Below are positions 15,757-45,604 of a DNA stretch of 49,792 nt, piece after piece. Position 1 is the first letter of the stretch; each line of letters begins with the position of its first letter. The position numbers and the translations under genes were made by a program. The DNA comes from Candidatus Levybacteria bacterium RIFCSPHIGHO2_01_FULL_40_16. Lineage in GTDB: Bacteria; Patescibacteriota; Microgenomatia; Levybacterales; UBA12049. Where the stretch lies: positions 153,975-203,766 of the forward strand of contig MFNS01000007.1 of assembly GCA_001783805.1 (NCBI GenBank), in the 5' to 3' direction. Under the pieces are notes generated by a model. That model was not told the DNA's origin. It saw nothing but the letters and a program-made list of their open reading frames with translations, and did no database searches.

Positions 15757-16173
15757 ATGAAAATTCAATTTTCAGCAGGGGGGATAGTGTTTAAAAGAAT
15801 CGGCGATAAAACAGAAATTCTGGTTTCGCAGCATTCCCAGCACCACGGTTGGGTTTTCCCCAAAGGATTAATTGGAGACCATGTTGAAAAAGAAAACAAA
15901 GAAGAAACGGCGCTAAGGGAAGTAAAAGAAGAAGCAGGAGTAAACGGAAAAATTACACGAGCCTTGAATCCGATTACTTATTGGTTCGTTATGGATAGTG
16001 AAAAAATCAGAAAAACTGTTTATTATTTTCTAATGGAATATGTGAATGGAGATATTTCCAAACATGATCATGAAATGGAAGCAGTTGTTTGGTTGCCGAA
16101 AGAAAAAGTTGAAGAAAGATTGACCTATGAATCTGATAAAACTGTCTGGAAAGAAGCCAAAAATCTAATTTAA
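15757..16173 (+). CDS. Nudix hydrolase
   Basis: A 138-aa protein. The full Nudix box is at residues 40-62: G, five residues, E, seven residues, then REVKEEAGV, which binds the catalytic metal. The opening QFSAGGIVFKR and the GWVFPKG before the box match the diadenosine polyphosphate/NTP pyrophosphatase branch of the family. Nudix enzymes cleave nucleoside diphosphates linked to another group; the substrate cannot be read from the sequence. It sits between tRNA-Arg(CCG) and tRNA-Ser(GGA), 4 bases before the latter, so it may share a transcript with the tRNAs. No Shine-Dalgarno is evident before its ATG. Confidence 0.9.
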   Translation: MKIQFSAGGIVFKRIGDKTEILVSQHSQHHGWVFPKGLIGDHVEKENKEETALREVKEEAGVNGKITRALNPITYWFVMDSEKIRKTVYYFLMEYVNGDISKHDHEMEAVVWLPKEKVEERLTYESDKTVWKEAKNLI

Positions 16174-20968: not shown

Positions 20969-21205
20969 TTATATTAATCTTTTATTTCTAAATGCAAAGC
21001 CTGAATTAGTTTTTAGATACTTTTCAAAATGCAAAGCTTTCAGTTTCGAAACAAAAGCTGAGTAGTGTACCAATTTAAGAGGTCTTAAATTTCTTGTTTG
21101 AGAAACTTCCCCCTTTTGATGAGTAGCTACACGTTGTTTCAAATCAGATGAGTAACCAATATATAAAGTTTTATCCCTTAATTGAAGAATATAAACATAA
21201 TACAT
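20969..21205 (-). CDS. GIY-YIG domain protein (second copy)
   Basis: From ATG 21205 the product has 78 aa and the same domain as the protein at 17612-17848: YVYILQL then LYIGYS for GIY/YIG, DLKQRVATHQKG with the active-site-type Arg, and HFEKYLKTNSGFAFRNKRL at the end. The ATG fits the paralogue exactly; an upstream in-frame ATG at 21238 would add 11 hydrophobic and aromatic residues and is less likely. It lies between a terminator and the tmRNA gene. The two copies both lie near structured RNA genes; whether that has meaning is not known. Confidence 0.87.
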   Translation of the reverse strand: MYYVYILQLRDKTLYIGYSSDLKQRVATHQKGEVSQTRNLRPLKLVHYSAFVSKLKALHFEKYLKTNSGFAFRNKRLI

Positions 21206-21305
21206 GAGGAAATTGTAGCAGAAATAAAAATGTCCCACTTCGTCCCTCTTCGCTTGCGCTACAATGGGATTACGTTTGGGACACTCTTCTTTTCAGCCAT
21301 AATGT

Positions 21306-21362: not shown

Positions 21363-21366
21363 AGAG

Positions 21367-21735
21367 TGGAGATGTCGAGCTGTGAGCTCGAGTCCAAGAA
21401 ATTACTATAAAAACTTCTACAAGCTTAGTTGATTATTTTGTGTCGCGCTATTTTTTTCTAATCAACAAGAATTAATAGCGTCAAGGTTGATAAATACAAT
21501 AAGGATAGAAACCAACTGCCCTCACCATCTCTCAACTGTAGTTATGCTTATAAAGTCCCGTTGAGAAAAGACTTCATAAACAGTTCAGCTTGTCTTAAGC
21601 GTATAAATACGCTTGTCGAAAAGCGAACGCTGGCATTTTATTGCTAGCATTTAATTTTTGATCAGTTTTACGACGTTTGATCGTTGTCGGCTTGCTGTTT
21701 TTTAAAGTGCAATCTTGTCGATGCAATGCATCCCC
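21367..21735 (-). ncRNA. ssrA: Transfer-messenger RNA (tmRNA)
   Basis: Minus strand, 369 nt, directly downstream of smpB. The acceptor stem is GGGGATG (21735-21729) with CATCTCC near the 3' end, discriminator A at 21367, no CCA encoded. GCATCGACAAG follows as in the usual tmRNA 5' domain. The 3' end has GGAC, a T-stem TCGAG/CTCGA with loop CTCACAG, which departs from the usual TTCRANT. The likely tag frame is 21648-21595: ASNKMPAFAFRQAYLYA, then TAA. Its stop codon sits beside a hairpin (AGCGTA-TTTA-TACGCT), as in other tmRNAs. tmRNA with SmpB frees stalled ribosomes and tags the unfinished protein for degradation. The call is strong from position, both end pairings and the promoter; exact tag start is inferred. 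Confidence 0.85.
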
Positions 21736-21744
21736 AAGACTGGT

Positions 21745-21773
21745 ATTATACCTAAATTAATTTGTAAAGTCAA
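21745..21773 (-). promoter_or_regulatory. tmRNA promoter
   Basis: Minus strand: TTGACT (21768-21773), 17-base spacer, consensus TATAAT (21745-21750). The -10 box ends 9 bases before the mature tmRNA 5' end (GGGG), so little or no 5' trimming is needed. Confidence 0.85.
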
Positions 21774-21787
21774 GGTCTAGCCTCAGC

Positions 21788-22234
21788 TTAGCCTTGTTTT
21801 GCCTCTTCCAATTCCTGCTCGACTTCGCGTTGAATATCTTTTTTCTTGATTGATTCTTTTTTGTCATATTGTTTTTTGCCTTTGCCCAAGGCAATTTCGA
21901 CTTTGATAAAACTTTTGGTGGTGTACATTGACAGAGGAACCAAAGTCAGATTTTGACCTTCGGTTTTGGATTTTAGAGCAATAATTTCACTTTTGTGAAG
22001 TAATAATTTTCTAGTGCGCTGTTCGTCATAATTTTCGGGTCTCGCATATTGATAGGGGAAGATCTTGGCATTGATCAAATACGCCTCAGAACCCATAATC
22101 CGCACGTGAGACCCAGTTAAATCCGCATGTCCCAAGCGCACAGCCTTGACCTCGGCCCCATAAAGATTTATTCCGGCCTCAAATTTTTCCAAAATTTGAT
22201 AATCAAAAAACGCCCGCTTATTCGCAATTTTCAT
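21788..22234 (-). CDS. smpB: SsrA-binding protein SmpB
   Basis: A 148-aa protein. It opens IANKRAFFDYQILEKFEAGI and continues LYGAEVKAVRLGHADLTGSHV, the typical SmpB oligonucleotide-binding barrel. GKGKKQYDKKESIKKKDIQRE near residues 117-137 is the conserved basic C-terminal tail that reaches the ribosome's mRNA channel. SmpB carries tmRNA to ribosomes stalled without a stop codon. Its start codon overlaps the stop of the RelE-like toxin gene by 4 bases, so translation is coupled to toxin translation. tmRNA follows 53 bases downstream with its own promoter. Length and motifs match the family fully. Confidence 0.95.
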   Translation of the reverse strand: MKIANKRAFFDYQILEKFEAGINLYGAEVKAVRLGHADLTGSHVRIMGSEAYLINAKIFPYQYARPENYDEQRTRKLLLHKSEIIALKSKTEGQNLTLVPLSMYTTKSFIKVEIALGKGKKQYDKKESIKKKDIQREVEQELEEAKQG

Positions 22235-22479
22235 TTATATGCTCCTTGTCTGTGTAGAATAGAAACTACAAAAATAGTTTTTTGCTCCGGTTGAATAAGA
22301 TAAAGTATTCTATATGGCCAAGCCCGTAGCGAATAAACCCCTGCAAATCTTCCTTCTAGTTTTTTCCCAAGATGAGGATTTGTTTCGAGTAATTTTAACC
22401 TTTGCTGTACTTTAAACAATTCTTTTTTTGGAAGACGTTTGCAGTGGGAGAGTGCTTTTGGGGTAATAATGATATGCAT
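22231..22479 (-). CDS. RelE/ParE-family toxin
   Basis: An 82-aa protein with the RelE fold pattern: ITPKALSHCKRLPKKELFKVQ (two N-terminal helices), then ETNPHLGKKLEGRFAGVYSL, RAWPYRILYLIQPEQKTIFVV and the end HRQGAYK. The late Arg and Tyr residues match the usual active-site region. RelE toxins cleave mRNA in the ribosomal A site; ParE relatives attack gyrase, and the family cannot be split with certainty by eye. It starts 5 bases after the Phd-like antitoxin and its stop overlaps smpB (ATGA). The order is antitoxin, toxin, smpB. Confidence 0.85.
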   Translation of the reverse strand: MHIIITPKALSHCKRLPKKELFKVQQRLKLLETNPHLGKKLEGRFAGVYSLRAWPYRILYLIQPEQKTIFVVSILHRQGAYK

Positions 22480-22484
22480 ACTGC

Positions 22485-22739
22485 TTATTTTAATTCGGAA
22501 AGAGGGATGCCCAAGCCCTTTTTTGCCTCTCTAATCCCAGTCAGAATGTCTTTTTCAGCTCCCGGAATTGCCAATATTTCCGCTGTTTCTTCCAATGATT
22601 CCAGCTCTTCTGCGCTGATTAAAGTTGCTTTTGGCTGGCCTTTGACAGTGATCACCACCCGATCCAGATACTTGTTTACTTTCGAAACGAGATTTGGAAG
22701 ATGTTGTCTCACGTCGGATATTGACATCAAATTAGTCAT
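22485..22739 (-). CDS. Phd/YefM-family antitoxin
   Basis: From ATG 22739 the protein has 84 aa. MSISDVRQHLPNLVSKVNK followed by VVITVKGQPKATLISAEELE is the Phd/YefM DNA-binding fold, in which the N-terminal part binds the operator as a dimer. The C-terminal 35 residues (AEKDILTGIREAKKGLGIPL) would wrap the toxin. ATG 22739 is preceded by a promoter and an inverted repeat, GTGTAC, 8 bases, GTACAC, that covers the -10 and spacer and probably binds the antitoxin. A second ATG at 22727 would drop four residues. It is the first gene of a probable three-gene operon with relE-like and smpB. Confidence 0.87.
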   Translation of the reverse strand: MTNLMSISDVRQHLPNLVSKVNKYLDRVVITVKGQPKATLISAEELESLEETAEILAIPGAEKDILTGIREAKKGLGIPLSELK

Positions 22740-22748
22740 ATTAAATGA

Positions 22749-22777
22749 AGTGTACAACAACATGTACACCTTGTCAA
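22749..22777 (-). promoter_or_regulatory. Promoter and operator of the antitoxin-toxin-smpB operon
   Basis: Minus strand: TTGACA (22772-22777), 17-base spacer, TACACT (22749-22754), 9 bases to ATG 22739. The inverted repeat GTGTAC (22750-22755), 8 bases, GTACAC (22764-22769) overlaps the -10 and would block RNA polymerase when bound. Confidence 0.75.
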
Positions 22778-22875: not shown

Positions 22876-25410
22876 ATGGACGATATTATCTCCCTCAAAG
22901 ATGGCTACATATTAGATAGAGCTACAAATAAACCCGTTGATATTAGAAAACCCGAAGAAGAAGTAAGACAGGAATATGAAAAAACCCTGCGTGAGGATTA
23001 TGACTACGATTATGAACGAATGGATATAGAAGTCTCCATTCAACGAGGAGAAGTCCACAACAAAAAAAATCAGAAAGAAAGAGCTGACATTGTAATTTAT
23101 AAAACCTCTAATAAAGCACAAAGAGACCAAAATAAAGATATTTTAGGAATTGTAGAAACAAAAAAACCGACAAAAAAAGATGGGATAGAACAACTAATGA
23201 GCTACATGTCTGCTACTACTGCTCTTTGGGGAGTGTGGATAAATGGCGAGGAAATAGAATATGTCTATAGAGACATAAAAACAGGAGAACTGAAAGAGGA
23301 TTATATTCATCAAATACCAAGTAGCGGTGAAACTTTTGAAGACATAGAAAGAATAACAAAAGAAGATTTAAAACCTGTTCAAAATCTGAAACCTATTTTT
23401 AGAAGAATGTATTACACTCTTTATTCAAATACCAACATAGCAAGAAAAGAAAAATTAGGAAGCGAAATGACAAGATTGATTTTTTGTAAAATTTATGATG
23501 AGAAATATGATTTAGATAAACCACCAAAATTTAAAATAGGCTTTAATGATAGCCCCGAAGATGTCAAAAAGAATGTAGAAGAATTATGGGAGAAAGTTAA
23601 AAAATACCTTGTTGAAGATGGTATTTTTGAACAGCACGAAAAAATAGTCTTAGACCCTAAATCAATTGTTTATATTGTTAGAGAATTAGAAAAATATAGC
23701 TTGACGAAAACTGACAAAGATGTTATCGGAGACGCTTTTGAAGTTTTTGCAGAAAGACAATTTGTGGGTGATAAAGGGGAGTTTTTCACACCACGCCAAG
23801 TTGTAAAGATGGCAGTAGATATTATCAATCCTCAACCGGAAGAAAGATTATTAGACCCTGCCTGTGGAAGCGGAGGATTTTTAATTTATGCCCTAGAACA
23901 TGTATGGGGCATTATGAACAATAGCCCAAAATATAAAGGAAGTAATCTTGAGGATGAAAAGAAAGAATTTGCCCGCAAATACTTTTATGGTATTGATAAA
24001 GAAATTGATTTAGTAAAAATTTGCAAAGCGTATATGTCTATTATTGGAGATGGAAGAAGCAGTATTGTCAAAGCCGATAGCCTCAAAAGTCCCGACGAAT
24101 GGGAAAACGCTGCGAGAACTATTTTAACCGAAGACGGCAAAGACCAAATGAAGAAATTTGATGTTATCTTAACAAATCCTCCCTTTGGCAGTAAAATAAA
24201 AGTCCATCACGAATATATATTAAAAAATTATGACTTAGGACATAAATGGATATTTAAAGATGAGAAATGGATAATGACAAATGAAACAAAAGAGACAGAA
24301 CCACAAATACTTTTTATTGAATTATGTCTTAATTTATTAAAAGATGGAGGAAGAATGGCGATAGTTCTCCCTGATGGTATTTTTGGAAATCCTACTGATG
24401 GTTATATACGAGAATGGATAAAAGATAAAGCAGAAATTTTGGCAATTATTGATTGCCCGCATAATACATTTATGCCTCATACTCACACAAAAACCTCCCT
24501 ACTTGTTCTTAAAAAATGGGATAAAACAAAGCAAAAAAATTACCCAATAATGATGAGTGTTGTGAATAAATGTGGACATGATACAAGAGGGAATGAAGTT
24601 TATACAAAAAATGAAAATGATAAGGAGATTTTAGATGAAGAGTTTTCCAAAGTTTCCGAGATTTATAAAACATATCAGAATAGAGTTATAAAGGGATTTG
24701 ATAGATTAGGCTTTACTCTTTACGAAGGTGGTTTAATAAATGGTATCTTAATACCAAGATATTATGACCCTGACACAATAAAAGATATTCAGAAATTAGA
24801 AGATACGGGGCGGTATGAAATGAAGTCAATTCAAGACCTTGTTGATGAAAAAGTCTTAGAAATTAAAGGAGCCGGTGGAACTGCACCAAGTAAAGACTAC
24901 AATATCTATGATGAAATCCCATTTTTGAGAACATCCGATATAGGGGCTTGGGAAACCAGAAATTATGCTGTGCAGAATGTGAATGAACTCACTTATCTTA
25001 AATATAAAGACAAGCAGAGTTTAAAAGAGGGAGACATGTTGTTTATAAAGGATGGAACATATAGAATTGGAGAAACTTTAATTCTTACTAAATATGATTT
25101 AAAAATGCTTGTTCAAAGTCATTTTCTAAAAATAAGGTCGCTTGATAAAGATGGTATGGACCCGTATTTGCTTCTATATTTGCTCCATGTTCCTGTAGTT
25201 AGAAAACAGATAGATGAAAAAACTTTTGTCCAAGCAACTTTATCTACAATTGGTGATAGATTAAACGAAATCATAATTCCAATTCCAAAAGACAAAGGAA
25301 TAAGAGAAAAAATAGGAATTGCTATGAGAGAAAAATTAGAAGCAAGAGCTAGGTTAAGAGCAGAAATAAGAGAAGTTTTTAATAAAGGCATAGAAGATGA
25401 AAATTCATAA
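22876..25410 (+). CDS. Single-chain restriction-modification protein: HsdR-N-like nuclease, N6-adenine methylase and target-recognition domain
   Basis: An 844-aa protein. Residues 20-135 match the HSDR_N_2-type domain with a PD-(D/E)xK-like set: D71 (RADIVIY) and E94-T-K96 (GIVETKKP). Residues 280-560 form an N6-adenine methylase with DPACGSGGF (327-335) and NPPF (434-437). Residues 620-844 look like one HsdS target-recognition half (IPFLRTSDIGAW, LILTKYDLKML, STIGDRLNEIIIPIP, ending in a coiled coil). There is no ATP-dependent helicase domain. The order nuclease-methylase-specificity is that of type IIG enzymes, although each domain resembles type I parts. It could also act as a methylase alone if the nuclease is dead. 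A 54-aa gene overlaps its 3' end and an IS-type transposase follows. Confidence 0.85.
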   Translation: MDDIISLKDGYILDRATNKPVDIRKPEEEVRQEYEKTLREDYDYDYERMDIEVSIQRGEVHNKKNQKERADIVIYKTSNKAQRDQNKDILGIVETKKPTKKDGIEQLMSYMSATTALWGVWINGEEIEYVYRDIKTGELKEDYIHQIPSSGETFEDIERITKEDLKPVQNLKPIFRRMYYTLYSNTNIARKEKLGSEMTRLIFCKIYDEKYDLDKPPKFKIGFNDSPEDVKKNVEELWEKVKKYLVEDGIFEQHEKIVLDPKSIVYIVRELEKYSLTKTDKDVIGDAFEVFAERQFVGDKGEFFTPRQVVKMAVDIINPQPEERLLDPACGSGGFLIYALEHVWGIMNNSPKYKGSNLEDEKKEFARKYFYGIDKEIDLVKICKAYMSIIGDGRSSIVKADSLKSPDEWENAARTILTEDGKDQMKKFDVILTNPPFGSKIKVHHEYILKNYDLGHKWIFKDEKWIMTNETKETEPQILFIELCLNLLKDGGRMAIVLPDGIFGNPTDGYIREWIKDKAEILAIIDCPHNTFMPHTHTKTSLLVLKKWDKTKQKNYPIMMSVVNKCGHDTRGNEVYTKNENDKEILDEEFSKVSEIYKTYQNRVIKGFDRLGFTLYEGGLINGILIPRYYDPDTIKDIQKLEDTGRYEMKSIQDLVDEKVLEIKGAGGTAPSKDYNIYDEIPFLRTSDIGAWETRNYAVQNVNELTYLKYKDKQSLKEGDMLFIKDGTYRIGETLILTKYDLKMLVQSHFLKIRSLDKDGMDPYLLLYLLHVPVVRKQIDEKTFVQATLSTIGDRLNEIIIPIPKDKGIREKIGIAMREKLEARARLRAEIREVFNKGIEDENS

Positions 25411-25561
25411 AAAATTAACATTAAAAGAACTTCAAAAAAGACATGCTAAAAATCCTCAAGATAAAAAGTTGCATGATTTCTTAAAAAAAGGCGGTAGGGA
25501 CAATGCTGAAGAGGATTTTAATACTGTATTGGAGAAAGCTGGGAAGACTTCAAAATCTTAA
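25397..25561 (+). CDS. 54-aa small protein overlapping the restriction-modification gene
   Basis: ATG 25397 lies 14 bases before the end of the restriction-modification gene, in another frame, and the frame is open to TAA 25559-25561. The product is short, basic and helical (LTLKELQKRHAKNPQDKKLH, then DFLKKGGRDNAEEDFNTVLE). The overlap suggests coupled translation. Its last 44 bases overlap the convergent transposase 3' end. It might be an antitoxin- or anti-restriction-like partner, but I recognise no family. Confidence 0.5.
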   Translation: MKIHKKLTLKELQKRHAKNPQDKKLHDFLKKGGRDNAEEDFNTVLEKAGKTSKS

Positions 25562-26429
25562 CCTCCGCAACTTGCTTTAACAAGCTATCAAATATATTTA
25601 TGTCGTTTCTATGATTGTATCTCCATGAGAACTCATCCGAGTAAGATTGTAGGTATTCTTTGGAGACATGCCTATAAACTCCAGTAATTCCTCTTTTTAA
25701 TTGCGACCAAACACCTTCTATATTTTGAGTATGGATTTCTCCTCTTGTATATTCAGAAGCACTATGATTAACCGAAAAATGGTGATAACCATATTTAGAT
25801 AATTGAGTATATCCTGCATAATTATCAGTCATGATACTTGCGTTTTTATCAACATTCTTCTGAATTTCCTCAAGTAAGGTATATTTTCCTGTATTTGGAA
25901 TATGTTTTGTATGAAGTTTTCCACCTCTTTCAACCATACCCATAATTACTTCTTTTGGTATTTCGCTAAAGTTTGGCTTAAAAGCTCTATTTTTACCTTT
26001 TCCTCCCACAAAAGTTTCGTCTATTTCAACATTTCCGCTTAATAAGTCTCCCTTTGTTTCTGTCATTAAAAGTCTTATTTTCTTAAACATTCTGTGAGCT
26101 GTTTTATATGTGACGCCAAGCTCTCTTTGAAGTTGCTTTGCAGATATGCCTGAACGGGTCTGTGTCATTATGTAGATTGCGTAAAACCAGTATTGAAGTG
26201 GAGTAGTTGTTTTCTCAAAGATAGTTCCCGCTAGAGGAGAGACTTGATGGCTTCCCCCAAATTCACATTCAAAAACGGGACGACCTTTTATTTTATAGAA
26301 TTTAGTGATTTTTTCACATTGTTTACAGAATATTCCATTTGACCAACGGAGGTCTTTAATCTTTTCTAAGCATTTGTCATTATCGGAGTATTTTTTAAGG
26401 AATACTCCAAGGCTAAACTTTTCTATCAT
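25518..26429 (-). mobile_element. IS1595-type (ISXO2-like) transposase gene
   Basis: A 303-aa protein. An N-terminal zinc ribbon contains CKQC and a later Cys; then the DDE domain begins with EIDETFVGGKGKNR, followed by IMTDNYAGYTQL and the closing IEGVWSQLKRGI, the typical IS1595 order of Asp, Asn/Asp and Glu/His residues. Such enzymes cut and paste their own DNA. The gene looks intact. The promoter (TTGACA, 17 bases, TATAAT) ends 6 bases before ATG 26429, so the mRNA is probably leaderless. I could not find convincing terminal inverted repeats: the right end would lie near 26460-26490, but no matching left end is visible before 25518, so the element may be truncated or have lost one end. 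Confidence 0.85.
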
Positions 26430-26889: not shown

Positions 26890-28245
26890 TTATTTTCCAA
26901 TAATTATAACTGCGGAGGGGGAGGAGTCTGGAGATAGATCGGAAGAGGTTGAGGTAATGGTGTAATCTTTGGCGAGATCCTTTTTGAGCAGATCCAGAAA
27001 TTTAGAATTTTCTTTTTTCACTTTGATCGTTACTCCAACATAATTAAAATTATCTGCGTTGCCGGTGGAAACGACATCGTAGCCAAACCCTTTGAGAATA
27101 TTTGCGCCTCTGGCCGCGATACCTTCTTTGCCGCTGCCGTTACGCACCGCAATTGATAGCGTGCTTCTGTCCAGGCCGGATTTGTCAATCGGTGAAACCA
27201 GAGCCAGACCATCGTCCACTTTTTTCAGCAAATCTTGAGTCTGGGCTAATTCCTTGGACTTGACGGGGAATTTAACTTGATTATCCTGAAGGATTTTTTG
27301 TGCAGACAGAAAAGAGTCCCGCGCCAAATTTTTATTCAGATCCACCAGACTTTGCCCTTCATCATATTTTTTTAAGGCTTGAGGGTAAATTTGGGCAAAA
27401 AGAGCTTGAATTTTAGCCTTGTTTTGATTTTGAATTGCCAGAAAAATACTGACTGTCAAAACCACAACTATGACAATTGCGGTTAGTAAAAATATTTTTC
27501 TTGTCAGCGGAATCCTAAGGTTTGGTTTTCTGAATGCTGATTTTAAAAAAGATAAATATTTGTTAAATAATGAGGGTTCCTGAACTTGTACTTCCTGCTT
27601 TATTTCTTCATTTTCTTCAATGCCCTCATCAATTAGTTCTTCCGCTTGAGGGGTCTGAAATTTAATAAAAATTGCAGAAATTTTCCCATTTTCCGCTTTG
27701 TGTATTTTTGGAGCCAAGGCCTCCGAGATTTGAGCTGGATCAGGGTTATTCAGATTGGAGTCAAGCTCATCCTGCGTGACAACTTGTGAAAATGCCTCGG
27801 TTGCCAAAACTATTAAATCTTGCTCCTTGAGAAATCCGGACGAAGCCGCAGCCTTTTCTGCTGTTGCATTTTGTGAGTCAAGCGCCAGCCCAAGAGACCC
27901 GCCCCTTTTGATAAAAACTTTGGCGTTTCCCAAGCCAAACAAGTACAAAATGTTATTCACAAAGGCTCCGGCAGCAAAAGAAATGGCCACTCCTTCTATT
28001 TGATTTTCAAAAGTTGAGGAAACGGCTTTTTTAATTGATTCCAAATTTTTCTCCTCAATTGTAAAAAATTCCTGTTCCAGGCGCTCCAGTAAATTCTTAC
28101 CCGAGATGTTTAAGGATTCCGTTTCGAGATCTTTCGTTTTCTCCAAAGATAAAACAGCAAAAAGCTTGCCGGCATTATAGGCCTGAGACCAGGAATTAAG
28201 GGTCGGGGTTGCGGATATCTTTGAGAAGGAGATATTATTATCCAT
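26890..28245 (-). CDS. Fusion protein: PP2C-like domain, membrane helix and LytR_C domain
   Basis: A 451-aa protein. Residues 1-195 resemble a PPM/PP2C-type phosphatase (AISFAAGAFVNNILYLFGLGN, then AKVFIKRGG, EQDLIVLATEAFSQVV, GKISAIFIKF) but metal-binding aspartates seem to be missing, so it may be non-catalytic. Residues 247-270 form one transmembrane helix (KIFLLTAIVIVVVLTVSIFL). The C-terminal 95 residues are a LytR_C domain (LSIAVRNGSGKEGIAARGAN, ILKGFGYDVVSTGNADNFNY), usually outside the membrane. This arrangement could link cytoplasmic sensing to the cell envelope. A second LytR_C protein occurs at 30857-31450. The gene lies 3 bases after the 75-aa membrane gene and is probably cotranscribed with it. 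Confidence 0.75.
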   Translation of the reverse strand: MDNNISFSKISATPTLNSWSQAYNAGKLFAVLSLEKTKDLETESLNISGKNLLERLEQEFFTIEEKNLESIKKAVSSTFENQIEGVAISFAAGAFVNNILYLFGLGNAKVFIKRGGSLGLALDSQNATAEKAAASSGFLKEQDLIVLATEAFSQVVTQDELDSNLNNPDPAQISEALAPKIHKAENGKISAIFIKFQTPQAEELIDEGIEENEEIKQEVQVQEPSLFNKYLSFLKSAFRKPNLRIPLTRKIFLLTAIVIVVVLTVSIFLAIQNQNKAKIQALFAQIYPQALKKYDEGQSLVDLNKNLARDSFLSAQKILQDNQVKFPVKSKELAQTQDLLKKVDDGLALVSPIDKSGLDRSTLSIAVRNGSGKEGIAARGANILKGFGYDVVSTGNADNFNYVGVTIKVKKENSKFLDLLKKDLAKDYTITSTSSDLSPDSSPSAVIIIGK

Positions 28246-29113: not shown

Positions 29114-30796
29114 TTAGTTCCTTTCTATATCATATAAGGGTCCGACAATTTGTATATTAGCGGGAGCACGCAGATTAAAATAAGTTTTGAAAAAATCTCC
29201 GGAAAGACTTGGATCAGACGAATCTCCGCTGACGTGTACATTGGCCACCCGTCCTACCGACCAATCTACATCCACGTTTATTCCCGAAACGGAATTAAAA
29301 GGCGTAATGCCCCTATTTTGAAGTTCTGCTTTGACTCTTCCCGCATCCCAGGTATCGGTGCCCGCAGGATTTGGATTGGTGTTTTTATCTGTCTGGTAGA
29401 GATGTTCTTTAACGGATTGATCTGTCCGGGCAAGCATAATTACATTGACGATATCCGCAACTTCCTCTGATTTAAGCCAGGCAGTTTTATTATAGTCTCC
29501 TCTTGATCCCCAGTCGCAATAAAACCAAGGAGAATCTTTATCGTAAGCATTATTTTTCAGATCCGAAAAACTGGAAATATTTCCATTGCCGTCTTGTGCA
29601 TTTTTTGTCCAAGGGGTGGCGCTCCAGCCAATATCGCTTGAAGAGTGAATGTATCCGCCGTGAGTAGAAGAAAACCAGGCTTTAACCGGATTTCCGCCCT
29701 GGATCATGACCATTCCGGCAGTATCGTTAACTGCCTGTTCCCAGTTGCCTCCTTTAGGATTGTCTTGAAAAACTTGGCATTGTTCAGTCGTACAAATTGA
29801 GCCCGAGCCATTGTTGGTATAAGCCAAGGCATAAGATCTGGCAGCAATTGTCTGAGCTTTTAAGGCCTCCATTCCTCCCTGATTACCCCATTCATTGGGA
29901 ACTTCGTAGATACGTTTGACATAATCATCCAGAGAATAACCATGATAACCTTCAACATTAATTATTGCGTCTCTTTTTTCAATTGAGTCAAAATTATAAT
30001 ACGCTCTTAAGATTTGTTCGTATCCTTGTCCCGCCCTTGATCTGCCAAATGCTCCGTACTGATTTAAACCGACGCGGTTAGGAACGCCATAAGTGAAGAA
30101 ACCAAAGCCTCCGCCAAATCCCGGATCTTTTCCGATATCGCTGGAACATCTTCCCAGAGAGCTGGCAAAAAGGGGAATACCTAATGCAGATAGCCTTTGG
30201 GCTAAGATTTCTTGCTGTCTGGCGGACAGAACAGCAATCTTGTTTGAGAGATTTGCCTGGTAAGTTTTTGCCTCTATTACTACCTTGTCTAAAGAGGCTT
30301 TGATGACAGCCAATTTTGCCTCTTCACTTTCTAAATCTTTCTTTTTCTGTTCCAAATCGGTAATCGAGAGAGCAATGTTGGTAATAATTACTTTATCTTG
30401 ATCCGCTTTGGCTTTTTGATAGGCAATATTCTGGATGATTTCACTGGCCTGTGAGCTGGAAAGAAAATAGGAAAGCCAATTGGCATTGTAGCTGTCGATG
30501 TAATTTCTGGCAACTGTTTTGTCAAAAACTATCTTCTTTGCTTCCAGATTCTTATATCCATTGTCAATTTCCCGCTTCTTCCTGGCTAGATCAGCTTCTA
30601 TAAAAGCAACTCTTTCTTTTATGTTATTAAGCTGGGCTTCCAGCGGCGCGGTTGCGGCTTTAGATTGATTATATGCGGTTCTTAAATCCTTTAATTGCGT
30701 GTTAATATCGTCCAGCTCATCTCCATAAGTTTTACTAATGCCGGAGAAAACAAAAACAGTAAAGATTAAAATTACAAAATATAGAATTTTTTTCAT
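29114..30796 (-). CDS. SpoIID/LytB-domain protein with N-terminal coiled coil
   Basis: From ATG 30796 the product has 560 aa. A signal peptide (KKILYFVILIFTVFVFSGIS) leads into a long coiled coil (about residues 25-215, Lys/Glu/Ala/Leu heptads) like those of EnvC/PcsB-type hydrolase regulators. Residues 240-500 contain the SpoIID domain (YGVPNRVGLNQYGAFGRSRA, VEGYHGYSLDDYVKRI, ALKAQTIAARSYALAY, STHGGYI), which in SpoIID cleaves glycan strands as a lytic transglycosylase. It probably remodels peptidoglycan. The start is chosen because an extended -10 promoter lies 12 bases upstream; a longer form starting at 30892 would cross the divergent gene's promoter. It heads the operon with bPH, DUF5657-like and PP2C/LytR_C genes. 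Confidence 0.88.
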   Translation of the reverse strand: MKKILYFVILIFTVFVFSGISKTYGDELDDINTQLKDLRTAYNQSKAATAPLEAQLNNIKERVAFIEADLARKKREIDNGYKNLEAKKIVFDKTVARNYIDSYNANWLSYFLSSSQASEIIQNIAYQKAKADQDKVIITNIALSITDLEQKKKDLESEEAKLAVIKASLDKVVIEAKTYQANLSNKIAVLSARQQEILAQRLSALGIPLFASSLGRCSSDIGKDPGFGGGFGFFTYGVPNRVGLNQYGAFGRSRAGQGYEQILRAYYNFDSIEKRDAIINVEGYHGYSLDDYVKRIYEVPNEWGNQGGMEALKAQTIAARSYALAYTNNGSGSICTTEQCQVFQDNPKGGNWEQAVNDTAGMVMIQGGNPVKAWFSSTHGGYIHSSSDIGWSATPWTKNAQDGNGNISSFSDLKNNAYDKDSPWFYCDWGSRGDYNKTAWLKSEEVADIVNVIMLARTDQSVKEHLYQTDKNTNPNPAGTDTWDAGRVKAELQNRGITPFNSVSGINVDVDWSVGRVANVHVSGDSSDPSLSGDFFKTYFNLRAPANIQIVGPLYDIERN

Positions 30797-30808
30797 GGCA
30801 GCTTTGCC

Positions 30809-30817
30809 ATTATAGCA
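30809..30817 (-). promoter_or_regulatory. Extended -10 promoter of the SpoIID operon
   Basis: Minus strand: TGC-TATAAT (extended -10, 30809-30817), followed by 12 bases (GGCA-AAGC-TGCC, a small hairpin) and ATG 30796. It lies back to back with the divergent LytR_C promoter. Confidence 0.65.
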
Positions 30818-30821
30818 AATG

Positions 30822-30850
30822 TTGCAAATGGACAGAATCAGTGATATAAT
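30822..30850 (+). promoter_or_regulatory. Leaderless promoter of the LytR_C gene
   Basis: TTGCAA (30822-30827), 17-base spacer, TATAAT (30845-30850), 6 bases to ATG 30857. Confidence 0.8.
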
Positions 30851-30856
30851 CGGGGC

Positions 30857-31450
30857 ATGGAAGACAATTCGTTTCAATCGCCGATAAGCCAATTTAATTA
30901 TGCCTCTCCGGAAATACCCAAAAAACCAAAGAAGTTTATTTACCTGATCATTTTTTTGGTTATTTTAGTTGGTTTCTTCCTAATCAAAAATTTATTTTTT
31001 GGATCAAGTGAACAAAAAGAAACGTCTGTTGTGACTCCAACCCCAACCGAATTTCAATTTCCAACTGACACTCCGGCTGCAAGCATTAGTCCAACTTCAG
31101 GACCAAATCAGCCAACTGCAGTTCCAACTGTCAAGCCGATAAATCCTATCGATCAGTCAACAGGCCTGGACAGAAGTACCCTTTCAATTAAGGTTCAAAA
31201 TGGCTCTGGCGAAACAGGCGTTGCGGCCAAAGGCGCAGACGTGCTGAAAAGTTTTGGCTATAAAATTACCTCAACCGGTAATGCCGATAATTATAATTAT
31301 GAAAACGTAACTATTCAAGTAAAAAGCACAAAAAGCAATTTCCTGGCGCTTTTGAAAAAAGATTTAGGCTTTAGCTACACTGTCGGAAGTGCTTCGGCAG
31401 ATTTATCTTCGGATTCCACCTCCGATGCTCTGGTAATTATTGGGAAATAA
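30857..31450 (+). CDS. Membrane-anchored LytR_C domain protein
   Basis: A 197-aa protein. A short cytoplasmic start (about 25 residues), one transmembrane helix (KFIYLIIFLVILVGFFLIKN), a Thr/Pro/Ser-rich linker (residues 55-105) and a C-terminal LytR_C domain (STLSIKVQNGSGETGVAAKG, VLKSFGYKITSTGNADNYNY, SFLALLKKDLG-like). The domain is closely similar to the C-terminus of the 451-aa protein at 26890-28245; most of the last 90 residues align without gaps. LytR_C domains occur at the ends of LCP enzymes that attach polymers to the wall, but here no LCP catalytic domain is present. It diverges from the SpoIID operon over a shared 60-base promoter region. Confidence 0.85.
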   Translation: MEDNSFQSPISQFNYASPEIPKKPKKFIYLIIFLVILVGFFLIKNLFFGSSEQKETSVVTPTPTEFQFPTDTPAASISPTSGPNQPTAVPTVKPINPIDQSTGLDRSTLSIKVQNGSGETGVAAKGADVLKSFGYKITSTGNADNYNYENVTIQVKSTKSNFLALLKKDLGFSYTVGSASADLSSDSTSDALVIIGK

Positions 31451-34592: not shown

Positions 34593-34621
34593 ATAATAAC
34601 ATGATAATGCTGATATGTTAA
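34593..34621 (-). promoter_or_regulatory. Leaderless promoter of the penicillin-binding protein gene
   Basis: Minus strand: TTAACA (34616-34621), 17-base spacer, TATTAT (34593-34598), 6 bases to ATG 34586. The -35 lies within the first codons of pgk. Confidence 0.65.
34603..34608 (+). promoter_or_regulatory. Likely -10 box of pgk, leaderless
   Basis: GATAAT ends exactly 6 bases before ATG 34615. No convincing -35 is seen at 17 bases. The box lies inside the spacer of the divergent promoter, so the two promoters probably compete. Confidence 0.45.
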
Positions 34622-35721
34622 GCTTTAATTTCTTAAAAGATGCAGGTGTCAGCGGGAAAAAGGTTTTTTTGAGAGCAGACCTTGACGTTCCGCTTGCAAA
34701 TGGGGGAATCGAGGATGATACCAGATTGCTGTCTGCGATTCCTACACTTGAATATCTTTTAAGCCAGGGTGCCAAAATTATTCTTGCCGGGCATTTGGGT
34801 AGGCCGGAAGGGATTAATAAGAGTTTGAGTTTGGAACCGATAGCCAAGTGGTTTGCGAAACAATTAACAATTAACAATTTACAATTAACAAAAATCGGAG
34901 AGTTTGAGGGGTGGGAAATTGGGCCAAATATTTTTCTTTTGGAAAATCTGCGTTTTTTTGCCGGAGAAGAAAAAAATGATCCGGGATTTGCCAAGCAATT
35001 AGCTAATCTGGCAGATATTTATGTCAATGAAGCGTTTGCAGATTCCCACAGAAATCATGCATCAATTACCGGTGTGCCAAAATATCTACCAGGTTTTGCC
35101 GGACTGCATTTACAGCAAGAGATAGAAGTTTTATCAAAAGTTTTAGAGAAACCTAAACGTCCTTTGGTTGTGGTGATTGGCGGGGCAAAATTGGAAACAA
35201 AACTTCCTTTGGTTGAAAAAATGCATCATCTCGCAGATTACGTTTTGGTGGGCGGAAAAATTGCTAGAGATGTGAAAACTTTATTAAAAATACAGCATGA
35301 GAAAATTGAAGGAAGAAAGTCAGCACTTTTAATTGCAGATTTAAATCTGGATGAAACAGATGTCACGCCAAAAAGCATCGAGAATTTTCTGCAGATTATT
35401 GATCTGGCAAGAACTGTTGTTTGGAACGGCCCTTTGGGAAAAATTTCAGATAACAAAATGGAAATGGCAAAAAGCGAGGATGGAAGCAGAAAATTGGCGG
35501 AAGGACTGGTTAAGAGTAGTGCCTATACGATTGTCGGGGGAGGAGATACGGTTGGATTTTTGGAAAAAGCCTGTCTTTTGGATAAATTCGCCTGTCTGCC
35601 CAAAAACAGATGTTTTCTTTCAACCGGCGGCGGCGCCATGCTTAGTTTTCTCTCCGGTGAAAAACTCCCCGGCCTGGAGGCTTTAAAAGCCCGCCCGACT
35701 TCGCCTGCGACACTGGCTTAA
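34615..35721 (+). CDS. pgk: Phosphoglycerate kinase with repeat-altered tail
   Basis: A 368-aa enzyme of lower glycolysis that makes ATP from 1,3-bisphosphoglycerate. Signatures: KVFLRADLDVPL near the start, GHLGRPEG, NEAFADSHRNHASITGVPKY, PLVVVIGGAKLETK and VWNGPLG, then TIVGGGDTVGF and STGGGAMLSFLSGEKLPGLEAL. An AT-rich tandem repeat (34861-34889) is translated as QLTINNLQLT (residues 83-92). After the conserved PGLEAL the normal end is replaced by KARPTSPATLA, read from one arm of a large palindrome (35689-35757). A second copy of the pgk end (GEKLPGLEALT, then stop) lies at 36460-36494, beyond the RHH/PIN genes. The enzyme should work, since the catalytic parts are intact. Confidence 0.95.
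   Translation: MLSFNFLKDAGVSGKKVFLRADLDVPLANGGIEDDTRLLSAIPTLEYLLSQGAKIILAGHLGRPEGINKSLSLEPIAKWFAKQLTINNLQLTKIGEFEGWEIGPNIFLLENLRFFAGEEKNDPGFAKQLANLADIYVNEAFADSHRNHASITGVPKYLPGFAGLHLQQEIEVLSKVLEKPKRPLVVVIGGAKLETKLPLVEKMHHLADYVLVGGKIARDVKTLLKIQHEKIEGRKSALLIADLNLDETDVTPKSIENFLQIIDLARTVVWNGPLGKISDNKMEMAKSEDGSRKLAEGLVKSSAYTIVGGGDTVGFLEKACLLDKFACLPKNRCFLSTGGGAMLSFLSGEKLPGLEALKARPTSPATLA
34861..34889 (+). repeat. AT-rich tandem repeat within pgk
   Basis: The unit CAATTAA is repeated about four times with small changes and stays in frame. Confidence 0.7.
35656..35673 (+). repeat. Left copy of 18-bp direct repeat (pgk end)
   Basis: GGTGAAAAACTCCCCGGC is identical to 36460-36477. It encodes the GEKLPG of pgk and marks the left border of the TA cassette. 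Confidence 0.85.
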
Positions 35722-35794: not shown

Positions 35795-36037
35795 ATGATA
35801 CGGACACAAATATATTTGCCTCAACAACTCTATCAAGCAATTGATCTGGTGGCAAAAAAAGAGAAAAAAGCTAAGGCTCAAGTTATTCGTGAGGCTTTGG
35901 AGAAAGATATGGAGAGGAAACAAGGTAATGCCGGAGAAACATTGCTAAAACTTGCAGCGATGGCAAAAAAATATAATTGGAAAGGGCCAAAAGATTTGTC
36001 TGTGAATCACGACAAATATCTCTACGAAAAAACATGA
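35795..36037 (+). CDS. Ribbon-helix-helix antitoxin (CopG-like)
   Basis: From ATG 35795 the product is 80 aa. IRTQIYLPQQLYQAIDLVAK followed by KKAKAQVIREALEKDM is a ribbon-helix-helix: a short beta strand, then two helices, which dimerises on operator DNA. The C-terminal half (NAGETLLKLAAMAKKYNWKG, then SVNHDKYLYEKT) would bind and block the PIN toxin. The ATG is supported by the promoter; an upstream in-frame ATG at 35777 lies between the promoter boxes. Its stop overlaps the PIN gene start (ATGA). Such pairs are VapBC-type toxin-antitoxin systems. Confidence 0.85.
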   Translation: MIRTQIYLPQQLYQAIDLVAKKEKKAKAQVIREALEKDMERKQGNAGETLLKLAAMAKKYNWKGPKDLSVNHDKYLYEKT

Positions 36038-36453
36038 ATACGCCCCTGATTATAGATACCAGCGCTTTTATTTCTTTAGGAAGCATTACAGATAGCAACT
36101 ACAAGAAAGCGCAATTCATAAGCAGTCGGATCAAAAAGGAGAATAGGAAAATCATTGTTCCAGGAGATATTTTTACAGAAACTATGAATGTGATAGGTAG
36201 ACAAATAGGCCATAAAGGGGCAATCATACAGGCAAAGAACATTTTTCTGGATAGAAGCTTATCGATTGCCGAAATGACTTCTCAAATCCGTCAAAGAGCT
36301 CTGGATAAATTTAAAAAACAGTCCGAGTCTGTAAGTTTTACGGATTGCATAGTCATGGCTTTTGCCGATGAATATGGGACAAGAGAAATTTTTGGATTTG
36401 ATGAAGCATTTCGCAAGAACGGATATATAAGAATGGGGATAGACAAGAAGTAA
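36034..36453 (+). CDS. PIN-domain ribonuclease toxin (VapC-type)
   Basis: A 139-aa protein. LIIDTSAFISLG near the start carries the first acidic residue (D8) and ETMNVIGRQIG the second (Glu near 49); SFTDCIVMAFADEYGTREIF near 108-127 gives the third and fourth acidic positions (TD, DE), and FGFDEAFRKNGY closes the PIN fold. PIN toxins cut RNA, often tRNA, using Mg2+. It starts by a 4-base overlap with the antitoxin stop. The pair lies between two copies of the pgk end, so it appears to have been inserted there as a cassette. Confidence 0.87.
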   Translation: MNTPLIIDTSAFISLGSITDSNYKKAQFISSRIKKENRKIIVPGDIFTETMNVIGRQIGHKGAIIQAKNIFLDRSLSIAEMTSQIRQRALDKFKKQSESVSFTDCIVMAFADEYGTREIFGFDEAFRKNGYIRMGIDKK

Positions 36454-45469: not shown

Positions 45470-45484
45470 AATTTAATATTTAGA

Positions 45485-45604
45485 TTTAAAGTTAGGTAAT
45501 CATGGTGTAAATCCATGACTGTGCCGCAACTGTTAAAGTCAGAAAACTAACTTTATTTAAATTCCCGAGCAGGATCTTTTCATTGTCCTTCTCGGGAGAG
45601 AAGG
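45485..45604 (+). promoter_or_regulatory. Cobalamin riboswitch
   Basis: The outer stem is TAAAGTTAG (45487-45495) with CTAACTTTA (45547-45555), a perfect 9-bp pairing. Inside, CATGG-TGTAAAT-CCATG and then ACTGTGCCGCAACTGT match the conserved core of the B12 riboswitch (usual GGTGAAAATCC and CCGCAACTGT elements). A following hairpin, CCCGAG (45564-45569) with CTCGGG (45590-45595), inner AGGA/TCCT, lies just before the Shine-Dalgarno AGAAGGA and a T run. The probable effect of bound adenosylcobalamin is to hide the ribosome site or end transcription of the adenosyltransferase gene. Confidence 0.88.

Follow-up and report, generated by a model that had tools for sequence, protein, structure and literature searches.

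Gene content of the smpB locus

The window is a 49,792-nt stretch of the 0.9-Mb genome of a member of the Levybacteria (Microgenomatia, CPR), very small bacteria from groundwater; the genome is designated G000. Genes for a YefM/Phd-family antitoxin, a RelE-type toxin of the RelE/ParE superfamily, SmpB and tmRNA lie in this order on the reverse strand (Table 1). An earlier sequence-only reading had listed this order, a 5-base gap between antitoxin and toxin, a 4-base ATGA overlap between toxin and smpB, a promoter before the antitoxin and a separate promoter for tmRNA. All elements are recovered by profile and Rfam matches, and the gap, the overlap and both promoters (TTGACA-17-TACACT and TTGACT-17-TATAAT) are located. 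The operator given there as GTGTAC-N8-GTACAC is present; a reading as two TGTACA boxes, with centres spaced by 12 bp, describes it better.

Table 1. Positions of features in the window.
Feature	Position	Strand	Description	Profile match or score
TA operon promoter	22749..22777	-	-35 TTGACA (22777-22772), 17-nt spacer, -10 TACACT (22754-22749)	10/12 consensus
Operator TGTACA-N6-TGTACA	22751..22768	-	12 bp centre to centre; in -35/-10 spacer, overlaps -10
YefM/Phd-family antitoxin	22485..22739	-	84 aa, start MTNLMSISD	PF02604 E 2.9e-14; TIGR01552
Gap, antitoxin stop to toxin start	22480-22484	-	5 nt
RelE-type toxin	22231..22479	-	82 aa	PF05016 E 7.6e-12
Shine-Dalgarno AAGGAG of smpB	22242..22247	-	within toxin C-terminal codons, 7 nt before smpB ATG
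ATGA overlap, toxin stop/smpB start	22231..22234	-	4 nt
smpB	21788..22234	-	148 aa, intact, full length	PF01668 E 2.9e-50; NF003843 171.9 bits
tmRNA promoter TTGACT-17-TATAAT	21745..21773	-	9 nt before tmRNA 5' end	11/12 consensus
tmRNA (ssrA)	21364..21735	-	full length, positions 1-374	Rfam RF00023 108 bits vs 47
GIY-YIG domain protein	20969-21238	-	small, just past tmRNA
HSDR_N/N6-methylase restriction-modification protein	22876..25410	+		PF02384, PF13588
IS1595-type transposase	25518..26429	-		PF12762 E 2.3e-40
LytR_C-domain gene	26890..28245	-	ancestral upstream neighbour of smpB; ~450 aa, domain C-terminal
SpoIID-domain gene	29114-30892	-
pgk	34615-35721
PIN-like ORF	35977-36453	+	follows pgk
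AdoCbl-II (cobalamin) riboswitch aptamer	45478-45557	+		57.5 bits

The window has no other exact match to the paired TGTACA operator; its one further match differs at 2 bases and is of a quality expected by chance. The YefM operators of yefM-yoeB and axe-txe show the same geometry, a pair of TGTACA boxes spaced by 12 bp across the promoter (PMC7730913). The antitoxin start codon lies ~10 nt past the -10 element, so the TA message may be nearly leaderless. The antitoxin is predicted to neutralise the toxin and to repress the operon.

The toxin scores 23.4 bits against TIGR02385 RelE_StbE, just short of the cut-off of 27.9. A PDB search with a three-sequence toxin profile gave seven matches, all of them either named RelE or Rv2866 or PHS013, and including 9g12 RelE (E 4.8e-9) and E. 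coli RelE. Rv2866 and PHS013 are uncharacterised proteins by annotation and are presumed here to belong to the RelE family. Neither a gyrase-type ParE nor a YoeB is among these matches, and a gyrase-poisoning ParE is not favoured by them. In the alignment, R57 (in PYRILY), H76-R77 and Y81 are retained in all three smpB-linked copies; R57 corresponds in position to the YR of RelE, R77 to the late R of E. coli RelE, and Y81 to the last Y in several RelE chains. The arginines and the C-terminal tyrosine are the residues that we take to be catalytic. The toxin appears closer to RelE than to gyrase-type ParE; mRNA cleavage by it is putative.

SmpB is above the cut-off in the NCBIfam equivalog NF003843 (171.9 vs 130 bits) and in TIGR00086. 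The sequence ahead of its start is CAAGGAGCATATAA, by which the Shine-Dalgarno sequence falls in the toxin codons Q-G-A. The same AAGGAG precedes smpB in the related genomes G004 and G001. It is weaker at the toxin end of the non-smpB copies in G030, G015 and G025 (AAGGGG, AAGGTG), and AAGGAG is also found at the toxin end of the non-smpB copy of G007. In the region, two promoter-like sites fit gene starts, those of the antitoxin and of tmRNA. A scan for promoters, which covered E. coli-like sigma-70 promoters only, and for terminators gave no such site in 22231-22740, from antitoxin to smpB; neither part of the contrary finding named by the sequence-only reading, a separate smpB promoter with a terminator behind the toxin gene, was thus seen there.

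The tmRNA was detected by Rfam RF00023 and was not called by ARAGORN. Its tag frame, read from ORF 21595-21726, ends ...NASNKMPAFAFRQAYLYA. Unusually long tags of ~28–30 residues, e.g. AKNSISALKAERDAILAELYGSRPALALAA, occur in some relatives (L012, L034 and others). Several relatives have small ORFs resembling that of the GIY-YIG protein in the vicinity of smpB. In G002 (L088:5076-6656) and G024 (L090), smpB is closely followed by a serine-recombinase gene, a hint that integration takes place at tmRNA or in its flank. A further RNA element in the window is a cobalamin riboswitch aptamer.

Ancestral neighbourhood of smpB

The usual neighbour of smpB in relatives is a gene for a 450–600-aa LytR_C-domain protein, mostly 0 to ~130 nt upstream, itself preceded by a SpoIID-type gene. 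Both genes are present in the window and form, in this CPR lineage, the conserved block ancestral to smpB. In G000, smpB and the LytR_C-domain gene are ~4 kb apart and are split by the methylase gene and the insertion sequence (IS). Read-through from the old operon is unlikely, since it must cross the IS and the 2.5-kb methylase gene on the opposite strand. After these insertions, the scan shows a single promoter-like site upstream of smpB, the antitoxin promoter. Isolation of smpB from its old neighbour is the best argument that the gene has probably come under TA control.

Alternatively, smpB is expressed independently, from an unrecognised promoter type or by distant read-through, and the overlap is a side effect of compaction of the genome. 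Overlapping genes are frequent in small genomes, little is known of promoter signals in CPR bacteria, and TA-less G002 has a -10-like stretch (TAAAAT, TATCAT) just before smpB. However, no site of sigma-70-like type lies between antitoxin and smpB, and read-through meets the obstacles given above. The good sigma-70-like promoters at the TA operon and at tmRNA indicate that the organism seems to use such promoters. Independent expression is regarded as very improbable.

Toxin–antitoxin modules at smpB in relatives

The comparison comprised 5 genomes of the genus and 73 of the family; 66 family genomes had an smpB match, and the DNA upstream of smpB was read in these. A TA module lies directly upstream of smpB on the same strand in 7 of the 66, and no TA was found directly upstream in the other 59. 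The order is thus recurrent, a point on which the sequence-only reading had made its proposal depend. Modules in the slot are of YefM-RelE, MazEF and PIN (VapC-like) type. YefM-RelE precedes smpB with an ATGA overlap in G000 and G004 and with a 43-nt gap in G001. A MazE-like/MazF pair precedes it in G003 and G031, where toxin stop and smpB start share 1 base (TAATG), and in G006, with a 3-nt gap. An AbrB-PIN pair precedes it in G019 with an 18-nt gap, and an AbrB-Doc pair is also present. G004 carries MazEF and YefM-RelE in tandem, and the remnant between them is similar to the ancestral neighbour gene at its 3' end; G003 has an extra PIN gene farther upstream. The arrangement, first described as a RelE case, does include RelE here and is not confined to one TA family.

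Three further observations concern the vicinity of smpB. The 43-nt gap of G001 (L030/L087) holds a small inverted repeat, GCCAAG-TTTGA-CTTGGC. In G022 (L024, 54-1295), a protein of ~413 aa, Fic-like by eye and possibly of toxin type, is encoded 196 nt upstream of smpB. A strong PemK match near smpB in G024 was not counted, since it belongs to another MazF type (47% identity) and lies ~5 kb away on the opposite strand.

In a tree of SmpB and the neighbour protein, in which several forks are weak, carriers fall on ~4 branches, with 5 parsimony changes counting losses. A single ancestral TA insertion is ruled out: TA-less sisters interleave with carriers, and the MazEF genes of G031 and G004 are far closer than their flanks. 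MazE and MazF of these two genomes share 95% and 93% nucleotide identity, as against 50% for the neighbour gene and 74% for smpB. Such similar cassettes between diverged flanks mean that MazEF moved horizontally at least once and reached the same slot. The MazEF promoter (TTGACA...TTGTGTATAAT) is preserved in all four copies. An assembly chimera is ruled out, because the arrangement recurs, with sequences that are related yet divergent, in several MAGs that were assembled independently of one another.

Exchange of the toxin half

Nucleotide identity among the YefM-RelE loci of G000, G001 and G004 is 86–97% over the promoter-operator (29-nt promoter) and 84–90% over the N-terminal half of the antitoxin gene. 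It falls to 36–57% over the antitoxin C-terminal half and to 53–61% over the toxin gene. It recovers over 17 nt that hold the Shine-Dalgarno sequence, and is 73–77% over smpB. Copies at other loci in G030 and G025 have an equal antitoxin N-half identity (90% aa); their toxins are 87% identical, versus 46–62% at the smpB loci.

The DNA tree of the antitoxin N-half joins the three smpB loci (support 100/98; alternative rejected, AU p 0.023). The tree of the antitoxin C-half and toxin joins G000, G030 and G025 (99/98; smpB-locus clade rejected, AU p 0.009). Both trees are built on small sets of 6 sequences. The signal is clear: the toxin half was exchanged, with the promoter, the operator, the DNA-binding half of the antitoxin and the smpB junction kept. 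A YefM promoter peculiar to smpB loci was considered and rejected, as similar YefM promoters and operators occur at the non-smpB loci L150, L154 and L158.

Other toxin–antitoxin loci and distribution in the class

Of 46 further ParE or PemK toxins in the family, three have a plausible core gene within 10 nt downstream on the same strand. In G072 (L143, G072:C32, toxin 15924-16157), a ParE-type toxin gene has an ATGA overlap with a pyrE-like gene, followed by a pyrF-like gene. An ATP-dependent DNA ligase gene follows the toxin with a 1-nt overlap in G062, and an oxidase-like gene follows at 2 nt in G007; the identities of pyrE, the DNA ligase and the oxidase-like gene are our reading of the sequences. 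By these junctions, tight coupling is a general outcome of TA insertion, unspecific to smpB.

Among 40 other TA loci, only two flanks recur: one is a weak match, and the other is pgk, next to which G007 (L145) and G089 (L160) have ParE-type modules. Together with the PIN-like ORF that follows pgk in the window, these modules make pgk a likely second site of repeated TA insertion in Levybacteria.

The class was represented by 262 genomes. ParE is present in at least 117 of them. Among 38 PemK matches listed, only one, in G003, is at smpB. Outside the family, neither ParE nor PemK was found directly upstream of smpB among the matches listed, which were matched by eye, so the TA-smpB association appears local to the Levybacteria family. 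About 0.04 ParE/PemK modules would be expected directly upstream of smpB by chance, versus 6 genomes observed, by a rough hand estimate (68 ParE or PemK modules, ~900 genes per genome, both orientations) that is weakened by vertical descent, by cassette exchange via flanking homology and by the choice of smpB after one case.

These controls bear on the possibility of a neutral slot, in which selfish or defensive TA cassettes recombine into permissive sites between core genes, tight spacing only keeps smpB expressed, and SmpB is supplied without a useful response to toxin. Cassettes clearly move, and the smpB slot has been exchanged and, in G004, stacked; the pyrE, DNA ligase and oxidase-like junctions, the second flank at pgk and the lack of TA at smpB in most relatives all agree with it. 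It accounts less well for three toxin types reaching smpB on ~4 branches when pgk and one weak match alone recur among the 40 other loci. The TA promoter, moreover, seems to be the only one left in G000, and the regulatory half was kept while the toxin half was exchanged. A neutral slot is judged a serious possibility, short of probable.

Interpretation of the locus

The favoured explanation, held with moderate confidence, is that a YefM-RelE type II TA operon has captured smpB as its third cistron and probably regulates it. Capture of smpB in a putatively autoregulated TA operon is well supported by the anatomy. TA modules have repeatedly landed in one slot, the interval between the LytR_C-domain gene and smpB, on the smpB strand; in this genome, the methylase and IS insertions later severed smpB from its old neighbour. 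The operon is predicted to yield a single transcript. The antitoxin, together with the toxin, would repress the TA promoter, and loss of antitoxin would free the RelE-type toxin and derepress the operon. The ATGA overlap and the Shine-Dalgarno sequence in the toxin gene would couple translation of toxin and SmpB. SmpB, which would clear ribosomes from RelE-cut mRNAs, would then rise along with the toxin. The earlier proposal that smpB is now regulated by the TA pair is strengthened by the isolation of smpB and by the regulatory half kept across the toxin exchange. Gaps of 43 nt in G001 and 18 nt in G019 and the restriction of the scan to sigma-70 promoters count against capture, as do the 59 family genomes in which no TA was found directly upstream of smpB, the lack of such a case among the matches listed elsewhere in the class, and the equally tight junctions at pyrE, the DNA ligase and the oxidase-like gene.

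That the cell raises its rescue factor upon toxin release is compatible with the anatomy and plausible as adaptive induction. A stronger form is that Levybacteria evolved several times, from different toxin families, a TA operon that carries its own remedy for the damage done by the toxin: toxin release would derepress smpB, the TA autorepressor would set trans-translation capacity, and toxin pulses would be recoverable. Such a dedicated function is considered rather unlikely. Most relatives are TA-less at smpB, other modules abut unrelated genes as tightly, and similar YefM promoters and operators serve non-smpB loci.

The part of trans-translation in clearing the damage done by RelE-type toxins is known, but the genes for the two have been studied apart. 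Their recurrent linkage, in position and probably also in regulation, offers a natural setting in which to test if chromosomal TA modules work as tunable devices of mRNA decay and rescue. The locus would illustrate a TA autorepressor taking over a housekeeping gene, and it shows toxin-half swapping at a fixed site with the regulatory half retained.

Comparison with known systems

To our knowledge, the rescue genes of E. coli lie outside the TA operon, unlike smpB in the putative operon here. No type II TA operon containing smpB was found described in the literature searched, which covered few subscription papers; the sequence-only reading had likewise known of none with smpB as third gene. Cleavage of mRNA in the A site by RelE and YoeB leaves ribosomes on truncated messages, and these ribosomes are recycled by tmRNA-SmpB (PMC4554461), in agreement with the biology on which that reading drew. 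The locus resembles relBE in its RelE-type toxin, whose putative A-site cleavage would likewise leave ribosomes for tmRNA-SmpB to recycle.

The most frequent smpB neighbours in surveys are ssrA, ratA/rnfH and the RNase R gene (PMC4131195). The ratA-rnfH pair of beta- and gammaproteobacteria is similar in that a gene once called a ribosome-targeting toxin adjoins smpB; it differs in being divergent from smpB (PMC1779556) and in not being a type II TA, and the toxicity of RatA has been attributed to a mis-annotated start (PMC11988751). In CnuH of Type II/III-A CoCoNuT systems, an OB fold like that of SmpB adjoins an RNase fold like that of RelE (PMC11090510), but CnuH is a defence helicase fusion and not a genuine smpB in a TA operon.

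The locus is like yefM-yoeB and axe-txe in having a Phd/YefM antitoxin first, a RelE-superfamily toxin second and paired TGTACA boxes, and like axe-txe in the placement of the boxes in the spacer and -10 (PMC7730913). It differs from both in that its toxin matches RelE sequences (Rv2866, PHS013, E. coli RelE) better than YoeB, and in that smpB is joined to it as a third cistron through the ATGA overlap.
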